Positions 31,538 to 44,578 of a DNA stretch of 64,000 nt are shown here, in pieces. Below the pieces are notes generated by a model. It ran no database searches, was not told where the DNA came from, and saw only the letters and a list, made by a program, of their open reading frames with translations. Source of the DNA: Parvularculaceae bacterium (GTDB lineage Bacteria; Pseudomonadota; Alphaproteobacteria; Caulobacterales; Parvularculaceae); assembly GCA_013389105.1 (NCBI GenBank), contig JACADZ010000078.1:1-64000 (forward strand), read 5' to 3'. How positions within the stretch are numbered: the stretch's first letter is position 1; every line of letters starts with the position of its first letter. The position numbers and the translations under genes are program-made.

Positions 31538-33640
31538 GTGACTGAATACAAATTCAAGGCGTTCATCAGCTATAGCCACGCTGATGAGCGGCACGGCGAA
31601 TGGCTGCAGCGTGCGCTGGAACAGTTTCGCACGCCGATTTCGCTTGTCGGGAAGGTCACCGGCTCGGGCGAAGTCCCCAGCCGACTTACTCCCATCTTCC
31701 GCGACCGCAACGACCTGCCCGCCGCCGGCAATCTCAACGCCGAAATCCAGGCGGCGCTTGCGGCAAGCCAGTACCAGATCGTGCTGTGCTCGCCGAATGC
31801 GGCGGCGTCGCGCTGGGTCAATGAAGAGATCAAACTCTTCAAAAAGCTGCACGGCCAAGAGCGGACGCTCGCAATCATCGTCGCCGGGGAGCCCGGAGCC
31901 TCCGCGAAATCGGGACGCGAGAGCGAGGAGTGTTTCCCGCCAGCATTGCGCTTTCGGGTCAATGAAAACGGCGAGATCACTGCCGATCCCGCCGAGCCGG
32001 TCGCCGCCGACGCGCGCCGCGACGGAGACGGCCGCCGCTACGCCATCTTGAAGCTTGCGGCCGGTCTGCTGGGCGTGGGTCTCGACGATCTGGTGCGGCG
32101 CGACGTCCAAAGGCGCACCCGCCAGGCGTGGACGGTGGCGGGGGTGGCCACGACGCTCGCCGCCTCGATGACGGGCCTTGCCCTTTATGCCGACTATCAG
32201 GGTGACGAAGCTCGGCGCATGCGCGGCGAGGCCGAGGGCCTCATCACTTTCATGATCGGAGAGCTGCGCGACAAGGTCGAGCCTCTCGGTCGAACGGATG
32301 TCCTTCAGGCGGTGGGGAAGCGAGCCCTGGCCTATTACGAAAACCAGGACCGCGGGTCGCTCGATGACGCGGCGCTCGGAAAGCGCGCGCGCTCCCTGGC
32401 GCTCATCGCAGAAATGGACATGCGCCGAGGCTCTCTCGATACGGCGCTGGCCGCGTTCGAAGAGGCGGCCCGCTCCGGCGAGCTTCTGCTCAAACGGAAC
32501 CCCGACAACCAGCAGCTGATCTTCGACCAGGCCCAGACGGTCTTCTACATTGGCGAAATCGCCATGAAGCGGAACGCCAACGATGTCGCCGAACGCAACA
32601 TGCTCGAGTATCTTCGCCTCGCCGAGAAGCTCGTCTCGCTCGATCCGGACAATCCGGACTGGCGACTTGAGCTGGCCTACGCCACCAGCAACATCGGCGC
32701 GGTCAGATTCGGCGCCGGAGAATTCGCGGCCGCGATCCCCTATTATGAGCGCTCAGCCGAGGCGCGGCGGGCGCTGTCGATGGCCGCGCCGGACAACGTC
32801 AAGAATTCGCTTGCTTACGCCTATGCGCTTTCATGGATCGCTTTTGCAGCGCTGCGACTTGAGGATTTCGCGCGAGCTGCGAAGGAGATCGAGGCTCAGC
32901 TTGAAGTCTACGAGCCTATCCTGCGGAAGGACCCCGATAATTTCCAGGTGCTCGATCCGCTGGTGACCGCACAGCGCCGGCTCGCGGATGCACGGTTCGG
33001 CGTCGGGGATGTCGCGGGTGCGGCGCAAGCGCTGGACGGAGCGCGAGCCACCGCCGCGCGTCTCCTAGAGCGAGATCCATCGAATACGAACTGGCTCATG
33101 AACGCGGCGCATATCGAACTCGCCAGCGCCGCGATCTCCTCAATCCGAAACAACGGCGCGGCAAGTACGCAGGCCGCCACCCGGGCCCTCGGCCTGGTCG
33201 AGAGGGTGCTCGCCGCTCAACAAGACAACCGCGACGCCGGGGCGGCGCTGATGAGCGCCCTGTCTTTCGTCATCGCCGGCGCGGCTCTCGACAGCGAGAT
33301 GCAGCAATCCATCCAGCTTCTCAACTCGCTTCTGGCGGCCGAACAAGCAGTTCCCAAACCGAATTTCGCCGTGATCGGGGAAGCCGCCGTCGCGCTCGCC
33401 GACTACTATGACCGGGCCGGCGACCCCGAGGCGGCTCGGGCTGCGCGCCAAACGACCGCGGCGTTTCTAGCGCGCCCAGCCCATGCGTTGTCTCTCCAGG
33501 CAAAATTCCGTTTGTCGCAACTGTATTTCGGGCTTGGAGATCACGCCCGCGCACGCGCCCTTGCGGACTCCTTGACCAGCGCCGGATACAAGCACGCCAC
33601 GTTCGCCGCGTTCAGCGAGGCGCTGACCGCTGGTCCCTAG
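31538..33640 (+). CDS. TIR-domain membrane protein with TPR repeats
   Basis: A 700-residue protein. Residues about 5-120 are a TIR domain: FKAFISYSHAD, FRDRNDLPAAGNLNAEIQAAL, YQIVLCSPNAAASRWVNEE, with E96/E97 at the position of the catalytic glutamate in NAD-cleaving TIR proteins. One membrane helix follows at about 198-216 (TVAGVATTLAASMTGLALY). Residues about 240-690 are TPR-like helical repeats (LALIAEMDMRRGSLDTALAAFEEA, LAYATSNIGAVRFGAGEFAAAIPYYERSAEA). The GTG start follows a weak ribosome-binding site. It could signal or defend; no effector partner is adjacent. Confidence 0.85.
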   Translation: MTEYKFKAFISYSHADERHGEWLQRALEQFRTPISLVGKVTGSGEVPSRLTPIFRDRNDLPAAGNLNAEIQAALAASQYQIVLCSPNAAASRWVNEEIKLFKKLHGQERTLAIIVAGEPGASAKSGRESEECFPPALRFRVNENGEITADPAEPVAADARRDGDGRRYAILKLAAGLLGVGLDDLVRRDVQRRTRQAWTVAGVATTLAASMTGLALYADYQGDEARRMRGEAEGLITFMIGELRDKVEPLGRTDVLQAVGKRALAYYENQDRGSLDDAALGKRARSLALIAEMDMRRGSLDTALAAFEEAARSGELLLKRNPDNQQLIFDQAQTVFYIGEIAMKRNANDVAERNMLEYLRLAEKLVSLDPDNPDWRLELAYATSNIGAVRFGAGEFAAAIPYYERSAEARRALSMAAPDNVKNSLAYAYALSWIAFAALRLEDFARAAKEIEAQLEVYEPILRKDPDNFQVLDPLVTAQRRLADARFGVGDVAGAAQALDGARATAARLLERDPSNTNWLMNAAHIELASAAISSIRNNGAASTQAATRALGLVERVLAAQQDNRDAGAALMSALSFVIAGAALDSEMQQSIQLLNSLLAAEQAVPKPNFAVIGEAAVALADYYDRAGDPEAARAARQTTAAFLARPAHALSLQAKFRLSQLYFGLGDHARARALADSLTSAGYKHATFAAFSEALTAGP

Positions 33641-41526: not shown

Positions 41527-43938
41527 CTACAACGTCGCCAGATACATTGCGCAAGGATCAAGCTTTTCGCGGGTTGGCGCGAAGCCGACATATTCGAACG
41601 AGGCGCCGACGTTGCGCATGGCGGCGGCGCAGGCGAAAGCGTCGCTGGCGTAGACTTTTCCGGCTTCCGTCTGCGGGCGGCAGGCAGCCGTAATCAGCTG
41701 GGCGACGGCGTCGTCGTTCTTCGCCTGCAGCGTCTGCGCAGGGAAAACGCCCGCGTCGAGCCATGCGCACCAGGCGCCGCCCTGCGCCTCGGCGATTAGC
41801 GGTTCCGCCGCCTCGAGCGCCGTTTCTAGACTTTTGAACAGCATGATGTCGAGCTCGCCCTCGGAGTCCTTGAACCGAAAGTCGCCCACGCTTGAGAGCG
41901 ATTTCGGAAGGCGCACGCCATTCTCGATAATCAGGGCGAAGTATAGGGTCGCAATGTCCTTCGCCGCCGCCTGGCCGTTCGGCGGCGCCGGCCAACGATC
42001 GCGATGCAGCCGGGCCGGCAGCCCGCGCGCCTTCCAGAGTTCGGCGTTGGAAAGACTCAGCGACACGCTCGCATCGCGATCATCGGGCGCTGCGAAATAC
42101 CCGACCGCCGCAGTCTCGAGCTGGCTCGCATGGCGCACAGCCTTCCCCATCGCGATTTCCGCGCCGAGCCGGTAAGTTGAGTTGCAGGCGATCGGGGTTC
42201 GCCGATTCCATTCGATGCTGGAGGCGCGGCGCATGCAGTTGATAAAACGATCCCGCCAGGCGGCCCCGCCGATCTGCACCGACGCTTTGAGAAAGTCCTG
42301 CGGCGCCAGCGGCAAGTAGACGTAAAGTTCGACGCCCTCTTCAAGCAAGCGTTCTGCGATCGCAATGTCGGCGCCCGAGGCGAGCGCGCCGTAGGCCCAG
42401 CCGATGCGGCGATCCTGCAGAAACTCTTCGAGATCCTCGATCATGCGGTCGATCGGCGCCGCCTCGCCGCCATGGCCTTCGCGAGCAATCGGACCGCAGA
42501 AGAAGGCGACATCCGCTTGCGGCGCGGCGCGGTCGATCCAGCTCCGATCAACGCCGACAGAGGGCGCAAGCCGCAGCAACTGCTTGCGCGTGGTCGCGCG
42601 CTTTCCTGGCGTCGTGTCTTCGGCGCAGGCGGCTGCCTCGAACAAGCTTGCCGCCGCGGCCTTATCGCCTTCGATGAGCTTGCACTCGGCAAGCGTCGTA
42701 CGCCGCCAGTAATCGCTTTCGGCTTCAGCGTCGCCCCTAGTCAGTAGTTGCGAAACGGCTGCGGCGAGGGCCCGCGCCTTGTGGCGATCCCCGGCAAGCG
42801 CATAGCCGGCGGCGGCGTTGACCCCAGGATAGAAGCCGCCGGTCTTTTCGAAGACCTTTTCATACTCTCGCGCCGAAAGGAGCAGACGTTTGCTATCGGG
42901 CTGACCCTTCCTGTCCGCGAAGGCGAGATCGCGCAGCAATCGCGGGCGGAGACAGGCAAGCTCCTCGTCGCTGAGGTCTCGGCCGAGCTTGTGCTTGTCG
43001 AGCAGCGCCAGCGCCTCGGAGATGGCTCCCATACGGGCGGTCGCAAGCACCGCCCGATGCATGTAGCGCATATCCTTTGGCGACCGTCGCGCTGATTCGA
43101 GCGCCAGGTGTGCCGCCGCCTGATTGAGACCCCGGTCCAGGTGCGCATCTATCTCCCAGAGCCAGTCGTCGCTCCGGTCTCCAGAGGCGCGCTCAGGTTT
43201 GCTTTCCGCAAGGCGCTCGAGCCGACGGGCGTTCTGGACGAGGATTTCGCCCTTCTTGTTCTGGAAAATGATCCCTGAGCGTTCCCAGATCGCCAGCGTC
43301 CGGTTCACGTGCTCGCGCGACACGCCGAGCATCGATGCGACCGAAGACTGCGAAAGCTTGCCGAGGTTGGCGGAGGGATTCCAGTCGTCCGGCGCAATCA
43401 AATCGGCGACTTCGGCGAAAAAGGCGGCAAGACGAACTTCGAGCGAATGGCTGGTGGACCTGGCGTACTGCCGCGCGAGCCGGTCGTGCTGATCGGCGAG
43501 AAGCGAAAGGAGAGCGATGCTGAGGTCTGGATTGCGGCGGGCGATTCGGAAAAAGTCCGCCGCCGGCGCTGAATAGACCTGCAGGTTAGTCAACGCCTCG
43601 ATCCGGCGACCTTCGGCGGCGTGGTCAATTTCCTCCTTCGGCGTCGATCGCTTCGGCGCCAGGGCGCCGACGAGCCCGAATATGGCGCCCGGGCCGTACA
43701 TTCCGACCAGGATCGCGTCGTCGACGCCTCGCTCAATCACAAGCTCTGCCGCGACGCCCGACTGGAGCACGAGGACCTGCGGCGCGTTTTCTGGTTTTTG
43801 AAGCACCTTGCCCGCCTGGAACGCCCCGACCTTGCCAACGCGGGCGAGCTCAACAAGGTCGTCGTCAGCGGCGGCTTTCAATACCGGCGAAGCGCGCAAT
43901 AGCCGGATCTTGAATTCGGCATCGGCGTCGGTTTTCAT
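41527..43938 (-). CDS. CRP/FNR-like regulator fused to TPR, SLOG-like and degenerate cyclase-like domains
   Basis: An 803-residue protein. Residues about 20-155 are a cyclic-nucleotide-binding fold (VELARVGKVGAFQAGKV, YGPGAIFGLVGAL). Residues about 165-240 are the CRP winged helix (LGKLSQSSVASMLGVSREHVNR). Residues about 260-460 are TPR-like helices. Residues about 476-645 resemble the SLOG-like part of TPR cyclases (GWAYGALASGADIAIAERLL, VELYVYLPLAPQDFLKASV). Residues about 655-803 resemble a class III cyclase (YFALIIENG, GELDIMLFKSLETALEAA, KVYASDAFACAAA, EYVGFAP). Canonical FADVVG reads FALIIENG and the WGD region reads GEL, so catalysis is probably lost. Confidence 0.8.
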   Translation of the reverse strand: MKTDADAEFKIRLLRASPVLKAAADDDLVELARVGKVGAFQAGKVLQKPENAPQVLVLQSGVAAELVIERGVDDAILVGMYGPGAIFGLVGALAPKRSTPKEEIDHAAEGRRIEALTNLQVYSAPAADFFRIARRNPDLSIALLSLLADQHDRLARQYARSTSHSLEVRLAAFFAEVADLIAPDDWNPSANLGKLSQSSVASMLGVSREHVNRTLAIWERSGIIFQNKKGEILVQNARRLERLAESKPERASGDRSDDWLWEIDAHLDRGLNQAAAHLALESARRSPKDMRYMHRAVLATARMGAISEALALLDKHKLGRDLSDEELACLRPRLLRDLAFADRKGQPDSKRLLLSAREYEKVFEKTGGFYPGVNAAAGYALAGDRHKARALAAAVSQLLTRGDAEAESDYWRRTTLAECKLIEGDKAAAASLFEAAACAEDTTPGKRATTRKQLLRLAPSVGVDRSWIDRAAPQADVAFFCGPIAREGHGGEAAPIDRMIEDLEEFLQDRRIGWAYGALASGADIAIAERLLEEGVELYVYLPLAPQDFLKASVQIGGAAWRDRFINCMRRASSIEWNRRTPIACNSTYRLGAEIAMGKAVRHASQLETAAVGYFAAPDDRDASVSLSLSNAELWKARGLPARLHRDRWPAPPNGQAAAKDIATLYFALIIENGVRLPKSLSSVGDFRFKDSEGELDIMLFKSLETALEAAEPLIAEAQGGAWCAWLDAGVFPAQTLQAKNDDAVAQLITAACRPQTEAGKVYASDAFACAAAMRNVGASFEYVGFAPTREKLDPCAMYLATL

Positions 43939-44026: not shown

Positions 44027-44061
44027 CAAGACCGGCCCCGCTGCTGGCGGGGCCGGTCTTG
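44027..44061 (-). terminator. Strong stem-loop between the two peptide ORFs and the CRP fusion gene
   Basis: CAAGACCGGCCCCGC (44027-44041) and GCGGGGCCGGTCTTG (44047-44061) are a perfect 15-bp inverted repeat around a five-base loop. It lies after the small ORFs on the minus strand and before the next gene. It lacks a T-tract, so it may terminate poorly, stabilise the transcript end, or act on both strands. Confidence 0.55.
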
Positions 44062-44085
44062 GAGTTTGGCGGGAGAGGCGGCGGA

Positions 44086-44175
44086 TCAGGCCTTGAGTGC
44101 GAACGGGCGGCTGACGCCAAGGCAGGCGCTGATGAGAGCGATGCCGCAGAGCGTGGTGACGAGCGCTTCGCGCAT
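44086..44175 (-). CDS. Possible 29-residue membrane peptide
   Basis: A short frame coding MREALVTTLCGIALISACLG followed by VSRPFALKA, a single hydrophobic helix. It starts three bases after the stop of the other small ORF, so coupled translation is likely. Its ribosome-binding site, within that ORF, is weak (CGAGATGAG). No homologue is recognised; the tandem layout and the hairpin after it are the only support. Confidence 0.4.
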   Translation of the reverse strand: MREALVTTLCGIALISACLGVSRPFALKA

Positions 44176-44178
44176 GGC

Positions 44179-44307
44179 TCATCTCGCGCGGACGTCAGCA
44201 ACCGGAGCGGCGTGGCGCTGGTCGGCGGCGGCTTCCACGCGCGCGGTGTTGATGAGCGACGCGATCACAAAGCCGGCGACGATCGACAGTTTGATGATGT
44301 GCAGCAT
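44179..44307 (-). CDS. Possible 42-residue secreted or membrane peptide
   Basis: A short frame beginning MLHIIKLSIVAGFVIASLIN, a signal-peptide-like helix, then TARVEAAADQRHAAPVADVR. GGGAGAGAGAC before the ATG is a good ribosome-binding site. It heads a two-gene cluster of tiny ORFs ending at a strong hairpin. Function is unknown. It could be a cell-envelope or regulatory peptide, or a non-functional frame. Confidence 0.45.
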   Translation of the reverse strand: MLHIIKLSIVAGFVIASLINTARVEAAADQRHAAPVADVRAR

Positions 44308-44578
44308 GTCTCTCTCCCACTGAACTCTCAGGCGAACCGGCCTGACGCCTGAAACATAGGCCGCAGCCGAGAAGACCCCCTGTTAACCGGGTCACGCGCA
44401 ATGCAGAAAGGCGCCGGCGCGAAAATTATTCAATGATGTCAATTTTTTATGGCCGCGGACGCGCCCAAATGCGGCGGCCCGCCATAATTCAGGCCGATTT
44501 CCGCCTCCCGGCGACGCCGCGCCCGGCGACATCTCCGGCCAATGCGTCGCCGGCTTTAGCTCTTTATACTGAACATTT
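44308..44578. other. Intergenic region after the ilv-leu operon
   Basis: CCGGCGACGC (44508-44517) and GCGTCGCCGG (44544-44553) are a perfect 10-bp inverted repeat about 25 bases past the leuB stop on the minus strand. It is a possible end of the operon, without a T-tract. Further on, minus-strand TTGACATCATTGAATAATTTT (44423-44443 region) is AT-rich and could serve the small ORFs. No gene is seen. Confidence 0.4.

Follow-up and report, generated by a model that had tools for sequence, protein, structure and literature searches.

Which part of a protein senses the signal when a CRP-type transcription factor and a cyclase-like body share one polypeptide, and is a cyclic nucleotide still involved? 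The question is raised by a gene on the minus strand, at positions 41527–43938 of the window, a 64,000-nucleotide stretch of DNA from a Parvularculaceae bacterium. The gene encodes an 803 amino acid fusion of CRP, TPR-S, SLOG and pseudocyclase parts. The reading that we favour, with a probability of about 0.55, is that of a one-component regulator in which the TPR-S/SLOG region would sense a nucleotide, plausibly TIR-derived, and control the fused CRP part directly.

Domain layout and spread of the fusion

The frame comprises 803 codons with zero internal stops and is present as a single copy in its own 3.03 Mb genome. Pfam analysis of the protein placed HTH_Crp_2 at residues 169–243 (E = 4e-11) and TPR-S (PF20308) at residues 278–377 (E = 1e-9), the latter with 39.2 bits against a curated cut-off of 27.6; cNMP_binding and MAP3K_TRAF_bd gave weak matches. 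The N-terminal part of the CRP moiety is a degenerate cNMP-binding-like domain (residues 1–165; 43444–43938, minus strand), which is matched by Pfam cNMP_binding at E = 0.01 in the window protein and at 2.6e-5 in an orthologue (L002). The pocket motif GE...R[ST] was found in 0 of the 9 fused proteins, a result on which the alignment and a separate pattern search agreed, and which sets the CRP part apart from the cAMP-responsive type of the superfamily. The CRP-type helix-turn-helix that follows (residues 166–245; 43204–43443, minus strand) gave an HTH_Crp_2 match above cut-off, in keeping with the CRP/FNR superfamily, and its recognition helix, SREHVNR, retains the arginine-glutamate...arginine (S-R-E...R) pattern of E. 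coli CRP. With CRP/FNR regulators such as E. coli CRP and a cAMP-binding CRP homologue (PDB 7pza), the fusion has in common this helix-turn-helix and a weak cNMP-fold N-terminus, but it differs from them in the missing pocket motif and in about 550 additional residues of TPR-S, SLOG and pseudocyclase.

The TPR-S sensor scaffold occupies residues 255–470 (42529–43176, minus strand) and aligned with stand-alone relatives (described below) at E = 2.5e-47 (hhalign). Burroughs and Aravind are said to have defined TPR-S, in J. Bacteriol. in 2020, as a domain that is predicted to sense signals derived from NAD+. Residues 473–655 (41974–42522, minus strand) probably adopt a YpsA/DprA-like fold of the SLOG superfamily. 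Support for this assignment is moderate and indirect: hhalign to stand-alone relatives gave E = 1e-37, and a model of the region matched YpsA (Z = 11.9), DprA (Z = 10.4) and LOG (Z = 8.1), the model being built by AlphaFold on two sequences with a pLDDT of about 50 (50 for the half-length and 45 for the full-length protein). A PDB sequence profile search with the SLOG region gave zero significant matches. The conserved SLOG block G.LA.G.DI..AE is intact (GALASGADIAIAE, residues 517–529); the suggestion that this stretch has decayed was therefore not borne out.

Residues 662–803 (41530–41955, minus strand) correspond to a dead class III cyclase. They aligned with the intact cyclase of the stand-alone relatives with a probability of 96.6 and E = 7e-10 (hhalign), control domains reaching 0.2–0.3%, and the intact relatives in turn matched class III cyclases in PDB at E = 4e-14. 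At the positions of the two metal-binding aspartates the window protein has N and E instead, and in the motif columns none of the fusion orthologues has both. The preliminary description, which had reported a cyclase-like C-terminus with changed metal motifs and read it as a decayed cyclase, is right in this respect. Since the genome bears other class III cyclases elsewhere (e.g. G000:C145 and G000:C175), cAMP signalling is not absent from the organism; it is the fused protein that seems to have left it. A separate pair, consisting of a class III cyclase gene near a cAMP-type CRP, was seen in two genomes of the genus (L217 in G000:C175 and L231 in G007:C19).

The search for the fusion covered 62 genomes of the family and even samples of 398 genomes of the order and 385 of the class. 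The same domain order was recovered in nine of the 62 family genomes, comprising seven of the nine available for the genus of the window and one from each of two other genera, at 36–47% identity. A fusion kept at this level of divergence is neither a chance event nor an assembly error, and the earlier description of a fusion between a CRP and a TPR-SLOG-cyclase body holds. All fusions form one clade (support 100/100). In one genome (G001) the frame is split across two contigs, and one locus (L049, from a Marinicaulis MAG) agrees with G076 in match span and identity. L052 seemed to carry a long N-terminal extension, but this proved to be out-of-frame noise and was rejected as a new domain. Outside the family the order and class samples gave only stand-alone bodies and no fusion, and viral contigs contained no relatives of it. 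In several members of the genus (L062–L066 and L069) the fusion gene adjoins either the sulfate-activation genes cysD-cysNC or a gene for an aldehyde dehydrogenase; in the window its neighbour is leuB. A literature search for this architecture returned nothing specific, key comparative-genomics papers being outside its reach.

Stand-alone relatives and the joint loss of cyclase and pocket residues

The body of the fusion has clear homologues of the same domain order in Alphaproteobacteria, namely stand-alone TPR-S-SLOG-class III cyclase proteins (PF20308 plus Guanylate_cyc, PF00211). They differ from the fusion in having no fused CRP, this being a separate gene where it is present, and in that the metal aspartates are intact in 50 of the 70 loci surveyed and lost in the other 20. 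The dead forms persist across several families. A TIR-TPR gene lies within the fetched stretch in 54 of the 70 loci, a count that leaves out 16 scored as having no TIR or lacking a TIR match. A separate CRP regulator is found near 56 of the 70, directly adjacent in 41 and across the TIR gene in 15 more, and adjacent CRP genes often overlap the stand-alone gene by a few bases. Because some stretches stop where the contig does, absences of neighbours are upper bounds. An adjacent CRP accompanies every one of the 20 loci with a dead cyclase, against 21 of the 50 intact ones. CRP thus recurs as the partner, and the fusion brings together proteins that are associated elsewhere, though the CRP lineage is not certainly the same. 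The preliminary description had imagined a former enzyme-sensor pair merged into one polypeptide, which fits these relatives, as they encode the enzyme and the CRP as separate neighbouring genes.

In the tree the fused CRP is placed, weakly, away from the neighbour CRPs, and a common origin of the two was not rejected (AU test, P = 0.31). As it does not group with them, the loss of its pocket may predate the fusion. The arrangement of TIR, TPR-S-SLOG-cyclase and CRP genes is widespread in the order (L076, L077, L085 and about 50 more loci among L070–L127 and L137). Two kinds of locus were seen outside the order. At three loci from f47 genomes (L136, L138 and L139), a pocket-intact CRP overlaps an intact TPR-S-SLOG-cyclase frame by 37–46 bp; because this CRP is a different one, independent recruitment is suggested. 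The other (L137) has TIR and CRP genes together with a dead cyclase that falls inside the dead clade, and horizontal transfer is a possible origin.

The cNMP-pocket motif proved to be missing exactly where the cyclase is dead, a pattern that goes beyond what had been guessed from the single sequence. It was present in 36 of 36 CRPs partnered with an intact cyclase, whether judged from the alignment or from a separate pattern, and in 0 of 29 CRPs associated with a dead one (0/20 beside a dead cyclase and 0/9 fused). The corresponding Fisher value is tiny, although the rows are not independent. By parsimony there were two losses of the cyclase, and a single loss was not rejected (P = 0.34), so the large counts do not represent that many separate events. 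Among unrelated CRPs of the same genomes only 3 of 29 have the strict pocket motif; loss of the pocket is therefore unremarkable by itself, and it is the exact match to the state of the cyclase that stands out. The joint loss, across relatives, of key residues in the protein that makes the messenger and in the one that receives it suggests that a direct mechanical link has taken the place of a two-protein relay. The data speak more strongly for a dropped cyclic-nucleotide step than for any particular ligand.

A TIR protein as candidate source of the signal

The window also encodes, at 31538–33637 (plus strand), a 700 amino acid TIR protein (Pfam TIR_2, E = 1e-11) that contains a hydrophobic segment as well as TPR repeats. 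It is homologous to the TIR gene product found beside the stand-alone relatives and is our candidate for the upstream signal maker. The TIR catalytic glutamate is kept in 68 of 69 TIR domains spanning the site, that of the window protein included. A full-length TIR orthologue is present in 7/7 fusion genomes of the genus versus 0/2 genus genomes without the fusion; two genomes of another genus have the TIR gene and no fusion, and no orthologue was found in two fusion genomes, G015 and G076, both of which are incomplete. The TIR and fusion genes do not form one operon in the window, where 7.9 kb and unrelated genes separate them, and in the relatives examined they lie on different contigs.

A precedent for such a connection is Thoeris, in which signalling from TIR (ThsB) to SLOG (ThsA, SLOG-Sir2) by variant cADPR is established (PMC9503650). 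The logic that the fusion may share with it is that an NAD+-derived signal made by a TIR enzyme is read by a SLOG domain; by analogy, we infer that this type of signalling could carry over. The output would differ, being transcription through the CRP helix-turn-helix instead of NAD+ depletion, and unlike Thoeris the fusion has no Sir2 domain (Pfam) and no adjacent TIR gene in the window. PADLOC gave no named system for the fusion, for the stand-alone body tested or among the proteins tested from the TIR/TPR-S-SLOG-cyclase/CRP neighbourhood; the fusion protein had no match, and the TIR similarity was weak.

With the two genes unlinked, and with no TIR orthologue found in G015 and G076, the fusion might instead respond to a metabolite that has nothing to do with TIR, such as an adenylylated sulfur compound, and regulate neighbouring metabolism. 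Its position beside cysD-cysNC in several members of the genus would suit such a role, as would the handling of adenine nucleotides by SLOG-family proteins (PMC9503650). However, the window lacks the cys neighbourhood, common descent would lead one to expect a shared position among members of one genus, and TIR is both near most of the stand-alone relatives and co-occurring with the fusion in the genus. We therefore hold this explanation to be unlikely.

Retained constraint, candidate operators and probable mode of action

The distribution of constraint along the protein bears on where the signal is sensed. Mean identity among the fusions is highest in the helix-turn-helix (59%), followed by TPR (50%), SLOG (46%), the pseudocyclase (34%) and the cNMP-like domain (33%). 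In relatives with an intact cyclase the order is different, the cyclase (45%) exceeding SLOG (40%) and TPR (39%), and in the stand-alone dead forms identity of the cyclase falls to 22%. Conservation is thus retained in the helix-turn-helix, TPR-S and SLOG and lowest in the pseudocyclase and cNMP-like domains, which makes TPR-S/SLOG a likelier sensor than the dead cyclase. The preliminary description had left the choice between a dead cyclase and a SLOG-like region; the latter is favoured by its conservation, and the former becomes the weaker option.

That the dead cyclase has kept the ability to bind a nucleotide, such as ATP or cAMP, and passes the signal on to the CRP part seems to us quite improbable, despite a C-terminal tail (P.T..G....S..F...EKL.PCP.Y) that is still conserved at 45%, compared with 34% for the whole domain, and despite a low-confidence model of the domain that resembles, with Z of about 8, ferredoxin-like SbtB-type PII proteins, including entries bound to cAMP, c-di-AMP and adenine nucleotides. 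Z values near 8 are common for small ferredoxin-like folds; moreover, the pseudocyclase is among the fastest-changing parts of the fusions, its metal and substrate motifs are gone in the stand-alone dead forms, and it is SLOG that keeps an invariant block. That the gene is decaying altogether, the fusion being a relic with a functionless C-terminal half, is very improbable: the cyclase and cNMP-like domains are both degenerate and the spread within the family is patchy, but nine diverged genomes have kept an open frame (allowing for the one split over two contigs), the helix-turn-helix, TPR-S and SLOG are 46–59% conserved, and dead forms persist outside the fusion.

Candidate DNA targets of the E. 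coli CRP type were found in relatives. A perfect TGTGA-N6-TCACA site occurs 277–477 bp upstream of the fusion match in four genomes (G001, G003, G007 and G008) and a one-mismatch version upstream of the fusion in two more (G002 and G004). Perfect sites number 0–6 per genome, and in a simple model, with the genomes taken as independent, the probability of finding one in at least 4 of 9 by chance is about 5e-12; relatedness inflates the counts. A second perfect CRP-type site precedes a DUF885 gene in five genomes, all with the fusion (G001, G002, G003, G007 and G008), and is absent from the two genus members without it (G005 and G006) and also from the window genome. It lies near 2473 in L220, 2519 in L224 and 2513 in L226, with a divergent YHS-domain gene alongside where seen. 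Searched with a query from G004, the closest canonical type of CRP is present only in G000, G004 and G007. The sites, which support an operator indirectly, may belong to a different regulator or act on an adjacent gene; other CRP-family genes exist.

Upstream of the fusion gene in the window there is no convincing operator. Two short ORFs and a hairpin (44060–44330, minus strand) separate the gene from leuB, and its promoter is therefore probably within the last 120 bp. The best CRP-type match, with two mismatches, is at 44381–44396, beyond the small ORFs and the hairpin, and was rejected as a site in this promoter. FNR-type sites (TTGAT-N4-ATCAA) upstream of the fusion genes were unconvincing, with at least two mismatches everywhere.

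The one-component regulator that we favour could have arisen as follows. The ancestor, of a kind still found in relatives, would have had side by side the genes for a TIR signal maker, a TPR-S-SLOG-adenylate cyclase acting as sensor and amplifier, and a cAMP-binding CRP as receiver. In the present lineage the cyclase is devoid of metal ligands, the CRP part lacks a cAMP pocket, and both belong to a single polypeptide. The most likely role of TPR-S/SLOG is to bind a nucleotide signal, for which an ADP-ribose-type product made from NAD+ by the TIR protein is plausible; a change in the C-terminal half might then directly reposition the CRP helix-turn-helix on operators of the TGTGA-N6-TCACA type. 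The order of the domains, the loss of the cyclase and pocket residues, the conservation of neighbours and fusion and the remaining constraint can be read from the sequences themselves; the ligand, the connection to TIR and the allosteric step are inferred. A broader proposal, to which we give slightly less than even odds, is that a cyclic-nucleotide circuit has been internalised: cyclase and receptor would have lost chemistry and pocket jointly while still paired, as neighbours or in one chain, and a TIR-derived NAD+ signal acting through TPR-S/SLOG would drive the CRP directly. The same odds extend to the idea that stages of this process survive among the relatives, namely a cyclase alone, a cyclase with a cAMP-type CRP, a dead cyclase with a pocketless CRP and the fused form.

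Such a series would provide living examples of each step toward dispensing with a diffusible second messenger, enzyme and receptor decaying jointly while their partnership is held by neighbourhood or fusion. It would connect TIR/SLOG nucleotide signalling, which is familiar chiefly from defence against phages, with the control of transcription, and it offers a testable regulator with candidate operators in relatives. The pocketless CRPs, for their part, predict cAMP-independent regulators that routine annotation would call cAMP-binding.
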